In this document: positions 9,723 to 23,649 of the stretch, piece after piece
Numbering within the stretch: position 1 is the stretch's first letter
Layout: each line of letters starts with the position of its first letter
Virus record (IMG/VR): IMGVR_UViG_3300028393_000263
Coordinates: 1 to 29,525 of that record
Origin: a virus
Length of the DNA stretch: 29,525 nucleotides
Strand: one strand, 5' to 3'
Made by a program: the position numbers and the translations under genes
The notes under the pieces: model-generated
The model's database searches: none
What the model was told of the DNA's origin: nothing
The model's input: the letters and a program-made list of their open reading frames with translations, nothing else

Positions 9723-10079
9723 TCAGTGACACAAAACCGACACATTTTCAGCAGCAATTCTAACGGCAGACTTAGTCTCCGCGCCATCAGCCCAACGCTC
9801 AACCTTCACACGGCCTTTGACGCGCACTAGCGCACCATTGCCGACTTCTATGATCTTCTCCGCCACTTGCCCCCATGAGGACAGCTCGAACTCATCGAAA
9901 TCTTCATGGAAGCGTCCTTCGTTGTCGGTCCAGTGACGGGCGATTGAGATGACGCGGCGGACCATGAGCGAGCCTGTCTTCGTTTCTGTTTGTCGGCTGA
10001 CGCCGCGCATTTCACCGATCAGATAGACTACGTTCTCTGTGGGCGTGGCTGTTTCTTTTTCTGTCGTTGATGCACTCAT
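9723..10079 (-). CDS. ssb: single-stranded DNA-binding protein
   Basis: ATG 10079 (ATGA overlap with the SF2 helicase gene) gives 118 residues. After a Thr/Glu-rich leader the sequence has the SSB-type OB fold: VYLIGEMRGVSRQTETKTGS, then RRVISIARHW, a strand pair with FELSSWGQVAEKIIEVGNGA, and LVRVKGRVKVERW. The WGQVAEK...GxLVxVxGRV arrangement is the classic SSB signature. There is no long acidic C-terminal tail, so the usual partner-binding tip of cellular SSB is missing or different. The protein coats single strands during replication and RecT-type annealing. An in-frame upstream start at 10109 would add 10 residues inside the helicase gene and is less likely. Confidence 0.85.
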   Translation of the reverse strand: MSASTTEKETATPTENVVYLIGEMRGVSRQTETKTGSLMVRRVISIARHWTDNEGRFHEDFDEFELSSWGQVAEKIIEVGNGALVRVKGRVKVERWADGAETKSAVRIAAENVSVLCH

Positions 10080-11152
10080 TGGAAAATACAACCGAGTTGT
10101 CGGTAGCACGTCATACGCTTTTTTGCGTGGAACGAGCCGATGGGGTGAAACTTGTCAGAGAAGTCTACGATTGTCGCGCAGTTCTTGGTTTCTGTTTTGC
10201 GCAATGCACGACTCGCTCGCTGGATCGTCTTCTGTGATGAGCGTCCTCCGCTGACCATGATGAGCAGATCTACGTTGGGCAGATCCAATCCTTCGTCGGC
10301 CAATGATGTGGCTATCATCGTTTTGAGCTGTCCGCTCTTGAATTCGTCCATCGCCGCCTTGCGCAGCTTCTTCGAAATCTTGGAATGAACGAGCCGAGAA
10401 CCCGGAATCCGTTTCTCGTAATCCTCTCCCAGCGTGATGCGCGGAATGAGGATGAGCGTCTGCATGTCGCCATGCTCCATCGCGTAATTGATGGCGTAGT
10501 CGTTGCGTTGTTTGTTCTGGCAGATGCCAATATCTACGAGCGATTCCCAAGCGCACATACGCTTTAGTTCCTCGTCGGTTATCCGCATGTACTTGCGTCG
10601 CGCTTGGAACAGACGCTCGATGTTGTCGTCGATCTTCTGATGGATGTTGAGGTCCGTGGCGTGGCTGATTTCGAGGTAAGCGTCGGCCAATGAATCGCCA
10701 ATGTCGCTGCGCTTGATTTCGTAGGTGCGGTTGTGAAAGAGCGTTCGTGTCACCGTGTTCCGGTCTGGATCGTCGCCCCACGGCGTGGCGTCGAAGCCAT
10801 AACGCAGTCCGTTACAGGACTCGATGATGCGATGCCATCCGGCGGCGGCGCTGTGCTTCGCTTCGTCCACAATGAGAAGGTTCTTCTTGCTGAAGTCTAC
10901 CGACTCATGCGGACAACGAACGTCTACAATGTTGTCTGGAATTCCCGCGACTCTCAACGATGTGCGCGCTTGCTGACATGTCTCGCGTGTTGGGGCTATC
11001 CATCCAAACGACATGTCAGGATAAAATTCGTGGTAATGCTTGATGATCGATGCAGCAATCCATGTCTTGCCACTGCCTGCCGGTGCGACGATCAGCCCAT
11101 AGCTTTTTTTGGCCCACTCTACTGCTTTTTGTTGGTATTCTCTTAGATTCAT
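10076..11152 (-). CDS. superfamily 2 DNA helicase
   Basis: 358 residues from ATG 11152. All main SF2 motifs can be read: an N-terminal Q-like element (LREYQQKAVEW), motif I/Walker A APAGSGKT at 23-30, motif Ia WIAPTRETCQQA, motif II DEAK at 96-99, motif III GFDATPW near 119-125, motif V IATSLADEGLDLP and motif VI QRASRALR near 311-318. It is compact, with no extra domains, like many phage DEAD/DEAH-type helicases of the UvsW or RecG-like functional class. It probably remodels forks, D-loops or recombination intermediates with the SSB and RuvC-like proteins encoded next to it. The leader is AT-rich (TTTTTTAAAATT before ATG), which may hold its own promoter. Confidence 0.9.
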   Translation of the reverse strand: MNLREYQQKAVEWAKKSYGLIVAPAGSGKTWIAASIIKHYHEFYPDMSFGWIAPTRETCQQARTSLRVAGIPDNIVDVRCPHESVDFSKKNLLIVDEAKHSAAAGWHRIIESCNGLRYGFDATPWGDDPDRNTVTRTLFHNRTYEIKRSDIGDSLADAYLEISHATDLNIHQKIDDNIERLFQARRKYMRITDEELKRMCAWESLVDIGICQNKQRNDYAINYAMEHGDMQTLILIPRITLGEDYEKRIPGSRLVHSKISKKLRKAAMDEFKSGQLKTMIATSLADEGLDLPNVDLLIMVSGGRSSQKTIQRASRALRKTETKNCATIVDFSDKFHPIGSFHAKKRMTCYRQLGCIFQ

Positions 11153-13042: not shown

Positions 13043-13837
13043 TTAATTTTCGGATTTATTCAAGACCCACTTAGGGCAAGAAAGGGTTTGTACGGCGGTT
13101 GGATAGGCTGGCCAACTGTCCAGTGCGCGGCATTCGTGCAGCGTCGAGATGGCTTTACGCCTCAGATTCTCGCCAGCCTGAAGCCATTCGGCATCCAGCT
13201 TGTAAATGCCAATGGCATACGGCGCTTTGCGTTCGACCGCCACGAAGATGAAACTGTCAGCGCCGGTCATCATCAGATAGTGAGCGGCCTGTATGTGATA
13301 GCCAAATGATGCGATGGTTCGCAGAAACGCTTCAGGCGATGCGTCGTCGGTCGTCTTCACGTCGATGAGCGTATGACCATCGATCCACAGATCGGGACGC
13401 GCTTTAAGGGCGATGCCGGTTTCATCGTCTTGAGCGAACACGCTGGCTTCGATCCTGTGCGGAAGATGAATGATGTCCCAGAACGGATGGCGACGGACAC
13501 TGTTGGCCACTCCTTGCACGTCGATGTCTTCAGCGTGAGTCAGATGGATGCGGCTCTTATGCTGCTCCTTCCACGCTTTGCCTTCTTTCGTGCGTCCATC
13601 GATATCCGGCGGAACAACGGCGACGACTTGCGAGTACAGTTGCGGCTCCAGTACAGCGGTATGAATCGCCGTACCCATCTGCATGCTCTTTGTAGGCTCC
13701 TGATGCTCCTCTAGCGCGGCCCGATAGTGCGCTGGCGACTTAAGGATCTTGGACATCATCGACTTCGATAGAGCATCAACGGCGTGATACTTCTCCGCTG
13801 GCATGTCGAGGTTGACGTGTTGGTTGAGAATGCTCAT
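13043..13837 (-). CDS. RecE/exonuclease VIII-type PD-(D/E)XK exonuclease
   Basis: 264 residues from ATG 13837, coupled to the RecT gene by ATGA. The RecB-type nuclease motifs are in order: GTAIH with His59, Glu130 in HRIEASV, the catalytic Asp149 in KARPDLW, DVK at 159-161 in LIDVKTT, and QxxxY at 183-187 (HIQAAHY). Its length fits the C-terminal nuclease domain of RecE and related phage exonucleases. The product should degrade one strand of a duplex from an end, leaving single strands for the RecT-type annealing protein encoded just before it. The RecE-RecT pair is the usual phage two-component recombination system, and the gene order supports it. Confidence 0.88.
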   Translation of the reverse strand: MSILNQHVNLDMPAEKYHAVDALSKSMMSKILKSPAHYRAALEEHQEPTKSMQMGTAIHTAVLEPQLYSQVVAVVPPDIDGRTKEGKAWKEQHKSRIHLTHAEDIDVQGVANSVRRHPFWDIIHLPHRIEASVFAQDDETGIALKARPDLWIDGHTLIDVKTTDDASPEAFLRTIASFGYHIQAAHYLMMTGADSFIFVAVERKAPYAIGIYKLDAEWLQAGENLRRKAISTLHECRALDSWPAYPTAVQTLSCPKWVLNKSEN

Positions 13838-14631
13838 TCGGTGGGCGGGTTAGCAAACGCCTTAGCCTTGGAGATGAAGCTGTCAGGATCGGCGATGATC
13901 ATGTTGGCCACCTTCGTGGATACATCGCGGAAGTTCTGACCTTCCTTAATGAGGCTCTTGCTGGCGAGGAACGCATTCGCTGCCTCGGAATGTGGCTCAA
14001 GAATCTGCTCCAGTTTCTCGATGAGCGAGAAGGTCGATTCCGGCGTCACATTGACCGTCTGGCGCACCGTTGCGGTGATGGTGGGTGTTGGTGAAGGGGA
14101 GGAGAAGTCGGCCACTTCCTCGGGCGTGTAACGGCCTTGAGTGATTCGCGGATCGAGCATGCGAGTAGCCTTGGAGATGACACGCGCTCTGAGCATTTCG
14201 GCGGGAAATTTCGCCCAGCCGCTGCCAGCTTTCGCAGGAAGCAAACCGGCCAGCTTCGCGTCGTCTGAAGTGAAAGCCACGCGGACCTTCTTCACGCCTT
14301 TTGAGAAGTCGGCGATGGCCGCGATTGCGTCGAACTGAATCCAGTCGATATCCCAACCGGCGGTCATCAAACCAGAGAGCATCGATTCGCTCTTCATGGT
14401 GATGTTGCCGTTGATGAGGTGATTCTCGCGCTTCCACGAGAGCGGAGTCATTCGACTGGCGATGCACTCCAAAGCTAGGACATAGCCTTGCTCAGGTTTG
14501 ACGCATCCGAACATGCCGCTGTGCGCTATCCAGTCGCCCATCGTCTTAACCGCGTCCATCGGACTATCGATGCGGTCGTAGAAGTCAGGACTGACTGGCG
14601 GTTGCGTTGTCGCTAATTGGTTGCTGCTCAT
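13834..14631 (-). CDS. recT: RecT-family single-strand annealing protein
   Basis: 265 residues from ATG 14631; the first 47 nt overlap the upstream HTH gene. The RecT-type core is at about 25-178: MDAVKTMGDWIAHSGMFGCV, a middle beta region (GVKKVRVAFTSDDAK), then WAKFPAEMLRARVISKATRM and LDPRITQGRYTPEEVADF, which is the highly typical end of this recombinase branch. The C-terminal ~85 residues form a Pro/Thr linker and a helical tail. It anneals complementary strands made by the RecE-type nuclease next to it and probably acts with SSB. A later ATG at residue 25 would remove the overlap but shorten the conserved start only slightly. Confidence 0.88.
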   Translation of the reverse strand: MSSNQLATTQPPVSPDFYDRIDSPMDAVKTMGDWIAHSGMFGCVKPEQGYVLALECIASRMTPLSWKRENHLINGNITMKSESMLSGLMTAGWDIDWIQFDAIAAIADFSKGVKKVRVAFTSDDAKLAGLLPAKAGSGWAKFPAEMLRARVISKATRMLDPRITQGRYTPEEVADFSSPSPTPTITATVRQTVNVTPESTFSLIEKLEQILEPHSEAANAFLASKSLIKEGQNFRDVSTKVANMIIADPDSFISKAKAFANPPTE

Positions 14632-15886: not shown

Positions 15887-16729
15887 CTAGGATTGGATGG
15901 GTTTGGAGGCGAGAATTTGGAACGCGAGAGTGCGGAATGCTAGATTGGCGGTTGCGGGGACGACTCCGTTTCCGAGGAGCCGCAGTCTGTCCAAGATAGT
16001 GGCAGACCGAGCAGACTTTCGACCCAAGCTGGATTCAAGCGTTCGCGCCGGTTCCCACCATCGTTGAGGTTGATTTGGTCCACTGGGCCATTTCCACGCA
16101 TCGTCAATGTCGCTATCCGTCGCAGGATTCGACCGCCCTTGTCCAGTCGCGCAAGCGTCGCGAAGGAAGCATTCTGATCCTTGTCCTCGTTCGCTGTTGG
16201 TGTAGGCCAGAATCCAGACCCGCTTCCTAATATGTGGCGCGCCGCATTCTTCCGCGCTGAATAGTCCGCTCGCAACGCGGTAGCCCATGCGCTCCAGTCT
16301 CTCCAGCGTCCATCGGATGCAAAGAGTTCCGTCTGGCATAAGACTGGTAAGGAGTCCTTCGACGTTTTCGATGAGGATGCAACGCGGACGCATTTGCTGG
16401 ATTCCGGTAAGCCAGTCGTCAAAGAGGAATCGCTCGTCCCCCCCACCTTTGCGGAGTCCGGCGTGGCTATGGGGCTGACAAGGGATTCCCGCAGCCGCGA
16501 TATCCACCAGTCCTCGAAATTTTCCGTATGGGAAGGCGAGCAAGTCCGCCCAGATAGGTGCCGCATCCAGTCGTCCCTCTTCAATTTTCGCAGCCAAGTT
16601 TGCGACGGCGTATGCTTCCCTTTCGACGTAAGCGATAGTGCGTAGATGCGGGATAGCCGATTTGAGTCCAATTCCAATGCCGCAATATCCGGCGCAGAAC
16701 TCGACAAGATTGACGGGATGATGATGCAC
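15887..16729 (-). CDS. DNA (cytosine-5) methyltransferase
   Basis: 280 residues from GTG 16729. The C5-methyltransferase motifs are in order: I, the AdoMet loop FCAGYCGIGIG at 11-21; IV, IPCQPHSHAG at 82-91 with catalytic Cys84 (usual form PCQPFS; here Phe is His); VI, ENVEG at 121-125; VIII, IRKRVWI at 167-173; and X, LLGNGVVPATA at 251-261. The segment between VIII and X (~175-245) is the short target-recognition region. At 280 residues it is compact but complete. It would methylate cytosine in a short target on phage DNA, most simply to evade host restriction; no partner nuclease gene is adjacent. The coding sequence is almost wholly shared with a second frame, described separately. Confidence 0.88.
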   Translation of the reverse strand: MHHHPVNLVEFCAGYCGIGIGLKSAIPHLRTIAYVEREAYAVANLAAKIEEGRLDAAPIWADLLAFPYGKFRGLVDIAAAGIPCQPHSHAGLRKGGGDERFLFDDWLTGIQQMRPRCILIENVEGLLTSLMPDGTLCIRWTLERLERMGYRVASGLFSAEECGAPHIRKRVWILAYTNSERGQGSECFLRDACATGQGRSNPATDSDIDDAWKWPSGPNQPQRWWEPARTLESSLGRKSARSATILDRLRLLGNGVVPATANLAFRTLAFQILASKPIQS

Positions 16730-16740
16730 GGCGGGTTCAC
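15940..16740 (-). CDS. overlapping alternate-frame ORF inside the methyltransferase gene (266 aa)
   Basis: A 266-codon frame on the same strand, shifted relative to the methyltransferase, runs from GTG 16740 to TAG 15940. The GTG overlaps the stop of the upstream gene as GTGA, the same coupling used by many genes here, whereas the methyltransferase GTG lies 11 nt further in. The product contains FWPTPTANEDKD (177-188) and LNPAWVESLLGLPLSWTD (235-252). I remember this pair of motifs from many phage proteins annotated as hypothetical or methyltransferase-associated. By direct comparison, the first is the other frame of the methyltransferase's LAYTNSERG and the second of its region up to DRLRLLGNGVVP. 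It may be a true overprinted gene or a frame kept open by constraint on the methyltransferase. Confidence 0.4.
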   Translation of the reverse strand: MNPPCIIIPSILSSSAPDIAALELDSNRLSRIYALSLTSKGKHTPSQTWLRKLKRDDWMRHLSGRTCSPSHTENFEDWWISRLRESLVSPIATPDSAKVGGTSDSSLTTGLPESSKCVRVASSSKTSKDSLPVLCQTELFASDGRWRDWSAWATALRADYSARKNAARHILGSGSGFWPTPTANEDKDQNASFATLARLDKGGRILRRIATLTMRGNGPVDQINLNDGGNRRERLNPAWVESLLGLPLSWTDCGSSETESSPQPPI

Positions 16741-16982
16741 GGCTTGGATCGTTCTGCGGTGGGGTAAATGTCGTAGTCTTCCGACAACTCGACCGGGACG
16801 ACCCGAATCCGCCCTTGTGTGTACTCGCCGGGATTCAACTCGCGAGCCGCACGTTCCGCGTCCTTGCGCGTAGCGAATTCGACCGTCTCATGCCTGACGA
16901 CCCGTTCCTTCAGATCTGACCAGCCAATCGCGCCGCTGATCTGAACCTTGTAGACTGGTTTGCCGAACAGGTTGCGACTCAT
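16737..16982 (-). CDS. small hypothetical protein (81 aa)
   Basis: 81 residues from ATG 16982, coupled to the upstream gene by ATGA. The product reads FGKPVYKVQISGAIGWSDLK, then VEFATRKDAERAARELNPGE and IRVVPVELSEDYDIY. The beta-alpha-beta pattern with the motif F-A-T-R-K-D-A-E-R-A-A-R-E-L is common in small phage proteins of unknown role and reads like a swapped-hairpin or RRM-like fold. Its stop overlaps the start of the alternate frame in the methyltransferase locus, and the methyltransferase start follows within 11 nt. It is thus part of the methyltransferase operon. Confidence 0.65.
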   Translation of the reverse strand: MSRNLFGKPVYKVQISGAIGWSDLKERVVRHETVEFATRKDAERAARELNPGEYTQGRIRVVPVELSEDYDIYPTAERSKP

Positions 16983-22313: not shown

Positions 22314-22319
22314 TTTAAT
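22314..22319 (+). promoter_or_regulatory. -10 element of the capsid promoter
   Basis: TTTAAT matches TATAAT at five of six positions and ends 10 nt before the capsid ATG. No good -35 box is seen 16-18 nt upstream (TACCAA region). If used, the capsid mRNA would start within a few bases of the ATG. This agrees with the close -10 spacing at 15562, 20675 and 23659. Confidence 0.35.
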
Positions 22320-22329
22320 TTTTCATCTC

Positions 22330-23568
22330 ATGGCTTGTACTAATGTCTTCAACGCCTTCGCCGTAGCGACTGAGTCGCTCGCGCAGGACGTCTATAAACG
22401 CGCTTCGTATCGCTCGATGTGGCTCAATATGATTGAGCGCGGCGAGTATCCTCAGGGTACGGGTTTGACCCAGACCTCGTTCACCACCACTTCCATCGAG
22501 CCGACTGCGGCTGAGGAATGGTCGGCCATCACGCTCGCCAGTGGTTCCAATTCTGGCGCTTGCGATGTCACCTACAACGACGTTCCGGTCGGCTATAATG
22601 CCGTTACTTGGAGTCCTGAGCGTTTCGCGCTGAAAGGCCCGTTGCTCTGTAAGGATGATCTGACCTTTGATCATCGCGTCGAGGCGTTCTTGCGCGTGTA
22701 CTTGGAGAAGCTGTCCATCCGTGCGCAGCGTTCTTGGGAGACTCGCTATCAGAATATGTTCGCCAAGTATGCCATCAAGGCAGTGGCCGACTCGTCCTTC
22801 ACTCAGGTCGAGACGATTCCCGCTGGCGTGAATGAGTTGCCGTGGATTCAGACCGGATCTGTTGGTCAGGCGCTCAATCAGTCCACCTCTGAGTTGACTC
22901 AGGAGATGCTGGATGTCGCTGCTGCTACGCTGATCCGTAACGGTGCAACGAATCCTGATAGCTCTGGCTTCATCACCTACAGCAGCGACGGCCCGGTGTT
23001 CCCGTTGTACATCGGCTTGGAGGCTTCGCAGCGTATCGCTCAGAACAATCCCGCGTTCCGCGACGATCAGCGTTACGCGGATATGGGTACTGGCGAGGGT
23101 GCGCAGTTGCTCAAGCGAATCGGCGCGAACCGGGTTATCAAGAACTTCCGGCATGTGCCGAATTTGTTCCCTCCTCGGTACAGCTACTCTGGCGGCAAGT
23201 ACACGCTGGTTCAGCCGTTCACCAGCACCTCCGGTACGAAGGGTACTGTGTTCAGCGTCAATTCGAGCTGGACGACCGCCGCGTACGAGGCTGCGTTCAT
23301 CGTGACTCCGTATGTGTTCAAGTCGCACATCGTGCGTCCTGTGAACCGCGTTGGCGATTTGGCGTGGATGCCGACCAACTACATGGGCGAGTGGCAGTGG
23401 GTGACTGGTGCCTACAAGCTCGACACTGATTGCCCCGATCCTCTGGACAAGAAGGGTCAGCATTATGCTGAGTTCATTCATGCTCCCGAACCCATTTTTA
23501 CGAATCAGGGTATGACCATCATATTCCGGCGTTGTACCGGAGCCTTGACGCAAATCATTTGCTCGTAA
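22330..23568 (+). CDS. major capsid protein
   Basis: 412 residues from ATG 22330. The opening MACTNVFNAFAVATESLAQD, the blocks YRSMWLNMIERGEYPQGTGL and LSIRAQRSWETRYQNMFAKY, and the end with GDLAWMPTNYMGEWQWVTGA and IFTNQGMTIIFRRCTGALTQ are familiar from phage capsid-type structural proteins, with the length expected for an HK97-fold subunit. It is highly biased to optimal-looking codons (strong GC3), as usual for the most abundant virion protein. It has its own -10 element and terminator, so it forms a single-gene transcription unit. The family call rests on pattern memory, length and codon bias. Confidence 0.65.
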   Translation: MACTNVFNAFAVATESLAQDVYKRASYRSMWLNMIERGEYPQGTGLTQTSFTTTSIEPTAAEEWSAITLASGSNSGACDVTYNDVPVGYNAVTWSPERFALKGPLLCKDDLTFDHRVEAFLRVYLEKLSIRAQRSWETRYQNMFAKYAIKAVADSSFTQVETIPAGVNELPWIQTGSVGQALNQSTSELTQEMLDVAAATLIRNGATNPDSSGFITYSSDGPVFPLYIGLEASQRIAQNNPAFRDDQRYADMGTGEGAQLLKRIGANRVIKNFRHVPNLFPPRYSYSGGKYTLVQPFTSTSGTKGTVFSVNSSWTTAAYEAAFIVTPYVFKSHIVRPVNRVGDLAWMPTNYMGEWQWVTGAYKLDTDCPDPLDKKGQHYAEFIHAPEPIFTNQGMTIIFRRCTGALTQIICS

Positions 23569-23591
23569 AACTCCAGTAAATACGCAATAAT

Positions 23592-23620
23592 CCGCAGGTC
23601 GAAAGGTCTGCGGGTTTTTT
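23592..23620 (+). terminator. intrinsic terminator of the capsid gene
   Basis: CCGCAG (23592-23597) and CTGCGG (23608-23613) form a 6-bp GC-rich stem with a 10-nt loop, followed by T6 (23615-23620). It lies 24 nt after the capsid stop codon, so it ends that unit before the HNH gene. Confidence 0.75.
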
Positions 23621-23621
23621 G

Positions 23622-23649
23622 TTGCCATTTCAAATCCATGCGCTAACTT
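23622..23649 (+). promoter_or_regulatory. promoter-like element of the HNH gene
   Basis: TTGCCA (23622-23627, five of six with TTGACA), 16-nt spacer, TAACTT (23644-23649), then 9 nt to ATG 23659. The -10 match is weak (TA and final T). It begins within the T-tract zone of the capsid terminator, so the HNH gene could be expressed on its own. Confidence 0.35.

Follow-up and report, generated by a model that had tools for sequence, protein, structure and literature searches.

A likely split C5-cytosine methyltransferase encoded by two almost fully overlapping phage genes

A locus on the minus strand of a 29.5 kb virus record (the whole stretch of DNA analysed, referred to below as the window) is likely to specify one split C5-cytosine DNA methyltransferase, encoded by two almost fully overlapping genes on a single mRNA. 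The gene in frame 0 (named alpha) would supply the large catalytic domain with AdoMet binding, the catalytic Cys and motifs I-VIII and X. The gene in the +1 frame (named beta) would supply a part of the small domain comprising motif IX and probably the target-recognition region with its WPTPTAxD units, as well as a helical N-terminal part. The two chains, possibly produced by coupled synthesis from neighbouring starts, are predicted to associate and to rebuild a complete HhaI-like enzyme, which would methylate phage DNA, presumably against host restriction. On the sequence evidence, both frames are conserved and selected, motif IX is recognised in beta only, and the beta module is found in frame in monomeric relatives.

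Locus and the two predicted chains

The alpha ORF (15887..16729, minus strand) encodes 280 aa from a GTG start codon (16727..16729), and the beta ORF (15940..16740, minus strand) encodes 266 aa from a GTG positioned 11 nt upstream of the alpha start. Both ORFs are located on the same strand and overlap by 790 nt, beta being in the +1 frame with respect to alpha, such that beta codon positions 1, 2 and 3 represent alpha positions 2, 3 and 1. The original prediction, made from this DNA alone, of two long minus-strand frames sharing about 790 nt is confirmed by these coordinates, and the two motifs which it quoted for beta, FWPTPTANEDKD and LNPAWVESLLGLPLSWTD, are both present in the beta translation. 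The GTGA start that it reported was likewise retrieved at 16737..16740 (minus strand), where the upstream ORF 16737-16982 ends in a stop codon that shares bases with the beta start codon. The recoding that it noticed, of VADADGE into WPTPTAS and of RVDRL into GWTDL, is correct and corresponds to the look of the two conserved frames.

In most of the clade to which the window belongs, beta starts 11 nt upstream of alpha at a GTGA or an ATGA, the latter being the equivalent beta start in L014, L015 and L017. The alpha start site reads ATGTGG in 49 of 77 non-redundant loci, the ATG of beta and the GTG of alpha sharing a base, and 22 of these 49 are without any other upstream start codon in either frame. 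The first beta start codon of Jacopo, C72C1 and R9.1 is situated roughly 170-190 nt inside alpha.

Alpha corresponds to the large domain of a C5-cytosine methyltransferase, with matches to PF00145 (E=1.8e-24) in Pfam and to phrog_363 (E=6e-43) in PHROGs. Its membership of this enzyme class was judged on motifs I, IV (PCQ), VI (ENV), VIII and X, all of which were recovered on the minus strand by means of alignment A4: motif I (LVEFCAGYCGIGIG) at 16667..16708, motif IV with the catalytic Cys (GIPCQPHS) at 16466..16489, motif VI (ENV) at 16361..16369, motif VIII (GAPHIRKRVWI) at 16211..16243 and motif X (DRLRLLGNGVVP) at 15956..15991. Motifs IV and VI are invariant in this alignment, and motif IV in addition carries the alpha-frame third-position signature described below. 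The AF2 model of alpha (pLDDT 82.5) is well folded except for residues about 180-250, the expected place of the small domain, and its best PDB match is M.HhaI (Z 21.0, rmsd 4.0, 222 aligned). In contrast to a single-chain enzyme, alpha does not hold motif IX in the same chain: using a regular expression, this motif was retrieved in the alpha frame of none of the 88 relatives with motif X, and 77 of these relatives have it in +1. The description of alpha as a 'complete' methyltransferase is therefore to be corrected, its motif IX being located in the other frame.

Beta, for which Pfam gave no match, belongs to the family phrog_1008 (E=2.5e-7), which is matched by 75 of 76 beta proteins, and a Pfam search performed with the same 76 proteins retrieved no family above chance. 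A PDB profile search with beta yielded no match at E<=10, and a BFVD fold search with the beta model no match at E<=0.001, the latter being expected because the model is of low confidence (mean pLDDT 54.8 for beta alone, with a ten-residue block containing the motif IX helix reaching 84). Considering its alignments, the LNPxWVExLMGxPxxW segment of beta (LNPAWVESLLGLPLSW, 15991..16038, minus strand) is assigned by sequence comparison as C5 methyltransferase motif IX. This assignment involves the relative L125, a Candidatus Megaera plasmid, in which a single frame encodes the catalytic domain, the motif IX segment and motif X: its RLNPDWVEWLMGYPISW aligns with KLHPRECARVMGYPDSY of M.HhaI and is then followed by motif X, the corresponding stretch being aligned to M.HhaI 270-314 (KTRKLHPRECARVMGYPDSY...FGNSVV) by a match which is weak alone and collinear with a strong first match. 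It is also based on hhalign, which aligned the motif IX block of beta with alignments of monomeric methyltransferases (prob 95%, E=4e-8), and on a beta-frame third-position signature. Alpha aligned with the first 160 residues of the monomeric enzymes (E=1.5e-46), and comparison of the beta and alpha alignments gave no match to each other. The WPTPTANEDKD element of beta (16177..16209, minus strand), a probable variable or recognition region, has a similar element in frame 0 of the monomer of prophage prophiGD91-2. The WPTP element is repeated in longer relatives, in which beta carries up to 6 WPTP-like units, and this part of beta is probably the target-recognition region, to which it is tied by position and by the phrog_1008 match rather than by structure.

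Openness and selection across the two frames

Compared with synonymous-codon shuffles of alpha, the open +1 frame has a P of 0.004 for this sequence alone (0.4% of the shuffles with equal or longer runs), and its openness is taken to exceed chance because relatives keep the frame open. Among the 96 IMG/VR homologues in which an alpha ORF could be recognised, 93 have beta open across 85% or more of alpha, and the same applies to 78 of the 81 divergent viral relatives. These divergent relatives derive from a search seeded with two-frame members, and those retrieved by the profile search are 36-53% identical to alpha in the best matching segment. The codon-shuffle P is <=0.05 for the +1 frame in 94 of the 96 homologues, as against 5 for the +2 frame, and the median open run in the divergent homologues is 324 codons in +1 versus 62 in +2, with phage C75C1 showing a +1 run of 460 out of 482 codons. 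The homologues used for openness span a GC content of 0.43-0.62. Stop codons in the alternate frame of homologues, which if frequent had been proposed to speak against a second protein, are thus rare.

In order to assess selection, nucleotide differences were sorted as silent or not in each frame by simple pairwise counts. Within the window's clade, substitutions that are alpha-silent and beta-changing amount to 0.15 per site, compared to 0.36-0.43 for the same class in five genes that flank the locus in these genomes (two of them on few pairs) and to 0.47 at sites silent in both frames. The corresponding NN/NS ratio is 0.29, versus 0.84-1.51 in the five flanking control genes. When disjoint pairs from the whole family are used, dSN/dSS for beta is 0.37 (0.30-0.47) and dNN/dNS is 0.65 (0.59-0.74), versus 1.1-1.2 and 1.0-1.1, respectively, in a helicase control of the same phages. 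A few of the chosen pairs share identical sequences, and few sites are silent in both frames. Judged against non-overlapping controls, purifying selection is found in both frames, as for a functional overlapping gene pair, and the excess conservation at alpha-synonymous sites, the lack of which had been named as a second argument against beta, is present.

The decisive signal for both frames is a regional switch of the free codon position. Across motifs I-VIII and again after motif IX, the alpha third position is the most variable, with 53-66% of the differences, whereas across the LNPxWVExLMGxPxxW segment the beta third position is the most variable, with 65-73%. Mean pairwise identity at the motif IX segment is 0.76 in beta and 0.40 in alpha, for a set picked by its pattern in beta (this pattern being present in 74 of 79 non-redundant sequences). 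For the stretches holding alpha motifs IV, VI, VIII and X, the values are 0.67-0.86 for the alpha translation and 0.32-0.43 for the beta translation. The DNA of motif X thus codes for conserved residues in alpha and for a variable stretch in beta.

Other overlapping or rearranged reading frames were also observed. The alpha and beta frames are joined in two close relatives (L018 and L019) by indels located within a G-rich stretch near the GLRKGGG codons, for which sequencing error, decay or phase variation are all possible; this G-rich stretch was set aside as a slippage site, being legible in few relatives and differing among them. Elsewhere in the window, a nested +2 ORF of 208 aa (10155-10781, minus strand) inside the helicase gene (10076-11152, minus strand) beats codon shuffles, yet it is probably due to chance, because its length varies widely, from 60 to 218 codons, in close relatives. 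Another nested +2 ORF, of 156 aa (13997-14467, minus strand) inside the RecT-like 13834-14631 (minus strand), is longer than in codon shuffles, and two long antisense ORFs, 22315-23628 (minus strand) and 22330-23568 (plus strand), cover the same DNA, with no PHROGs match to either.

Module arrangements in relatives and competing explanations

Prophage prophiGD91-2 encodes one chain that encompasses the catalytic domain, LPTPxxxDG units, motif IX and motif X, and phrog_1008 matches residues 188-381 of this monomeric enzyme (E=4.3e-58), with phrog_363 matching residues 3-375 of the same protein. Relatives show the modules in different arrangements. In the first (A, the window type), WPTP units and motif IX are in the +1 frame and motif X in frame 0; in the second (B, comprising L125, L225, L226 and L228), LPTP units are in an open +1 frame and motifs IX and X in frame 0; in the third (C, comprising prophiGD91-2 and L215-L224), all modules are in frame 0, and most members show no protection of the +1 frame, L220 and L222 being among the exceptions. 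Such a pattern is expected from a module that the enzyme needs, either in cis or in trans. Monomeric methyltransferases whose catalytic domain is in frame with LPTP units and motif IX, the components of the beta module, were observed in L131:547-1701 as well as in L215-L224, and L074:1115-1750 contains an insertion between beta motif IX and alpha motif X which by eye is HNH endonuclease-like.

In the Rctr41k class, motif IX is in the alpha frame, yet a selected +1 ORF of about 160 codons is present, with an SN/SS of 0.49 inside its bounds versus 1.01 outside; therefore, not every +1 protein supplies motif IX. This ORF (L130:689-1168, with relatives L135-L214) differs from beta, is open in 72 of 80 (P<=0.05) and matches phrog_16143. 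It includes a KYYLSxKA segment which we take to resemble part of C5 recognition regions; searches for this likeness returned no confirmation.

These data bear on what beta represents. That the +1 frame is open merely through methyltransferase composition and codon use, beta being an annotation artefact, can hardly be credited: even though the single-sequence openness has a P of only 0.004 and an equally low shuffle P is obtained for the nested, probably fortuitous ORF within the window's helicase gene, the frame is open over the whole GC range given above and across strongly divergent proteins, controls are without such a signal, synonymous change is suppressed, and motif IX bears the beta third-position signature. 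A composition artefact was accordingly rejected on the shuffles, the openness in relatives and selection relative to controls. Where the original prediction left the choice between overprinting and a widespread annotation artefact, conserved openness, selection in both frames and conserved start sites support the former and leave the latter unsupported. It is very unlikely that programmed frameshifting joins the alpha start and the beta module in a single monomeric chain. Such a mechanism would suit the fact that the WPTP units and motif IX are read in +1 from DNA situated between the codons for alpha motifs VIII and X, as well as the presence of both in one chain in monomeric relatives, but reading motif IX and then motif X would take two opposite shifts, beta has conserved start sites of its own, and alpha-silent change is suppressed over the whole overlap.

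It also appears unlikely that beta, while a real and selected protein, is an independent regulator or counter-defence factor overprinted on alpha and no methyltransferase subunit. Selection alone is silent on function, and Rctr41k-type enzymes, with their in-frame motif IX, have a selected +1 ORF too; against this, beta holds the one motif that alpha lacks, and its module occurs in cis in monomeric relatives, where +1 is mostly unprotected. The proposal of a second protein overprinted in the methyltransferase is thus supported as far as the protein itself is concerned, its identity having been missed: most likely it is the motif IX and recognition part of the same enzyme.

Beyond this split-enzyme reading, it is conceivable, and suggested here tentatively, that phage C5 methyltransferases commonly encode their recognition part in +1 over the catalytic gene, as a separate specificity chain that could be interchanged and in which the number of WPTPTAxD units varies, co-started with the catalytic chain at one ATGTG; this would then hold for two classes or more (that of the window and that of Rctr41k), with some lineages being single-chain.

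Spread and comparison with known systems

The same +1 register is found in phages of Paenibacillus, Lacticaseibacillus, Escherichia, Bacteroides, Pseudomonas and others, and also in E. coli chromosomes. Beta is usually unannotated, annotated examples being those of Paenibacillus phages Jacopo (gp56/gp57) and Diva, in which gp50 carries the note 'g49 internal gene'. Phrog_1008 and phrog_363, to which beta and alpha belong, are listed in databases as separate methyltransferases, without the split-enzyme relation. The locus represents a deeply conserved and nearly complete same-strand overlap in phages, both frames of which appear to encode parts of one enzyme, and widespread phage proteins named 'hypothetical' or oddly become a predicted subunit. 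Alpha made alone from such annotations is expected to be inactive, and specificities would therefore go unnoticed. The split-enzyme reading can be tested on related prophage genes present in E. coli strains, and the coexistence of split and single-chain forms is a natural record from which the origin or resolution of gene overlaps may be followed. No papers describing such an overlap in phage methyltransferases were found in the open-licence literature; as far as searched, the new features are how far the two genes overlap, the starts that they share, the repeats carried by beta, the distribution of the arrangement and the occurrence of cis and trans states.

The closest layout is that of M.EcoHK31I, a two-polypeptide C5 methyltransferase for YGGCCR, the small chain of which, as reportedly described by Lee, Kam and Shaw in 1995, is encoded in a different frame within the large-chain gene, both chains being needed for activity. 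In that enzyme, motifs I-VIII and X are located on the large chain and motif IX alone on the small polypeptide (PMC3404938). The locus described here has the same distribution, a likeness which is based on motif layout, by description of M.EcoHK31I. The differences from M.EcoHK31I are that beta extends over nearly the entire length of alpha, that the two genes frequently share an ATGTG at which beta starts, that beta carries multiple WPTP-like units (up to the six noted above), and that no recognition region can be recognised in alpha, the one of M.EcoHK31I being predicted in the large chain. In the two-subunit split C5 methyltransferase M.AquI, the distal recognition part and motif IX are on the small subunit, as here; however, this small subunit holds both motifs IX and X (PMC3404938), while motif X is here on alpha, so that the locus differs from the M.AquI type.

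With regard to the shared starts, initiation in both frames at AUGUG has been demonstrated in E. coli (PMC9841429), and AUGUG dual initiation in E. coli pqiA, tamA and narQ and in Thermus rnpA-rpmH likewise involves overlapping or neighbouring starts in two frames (PMC9841429). These genes do not encode methyltransferases, whereas at the present locus both products are probably subunits of one enzyme.
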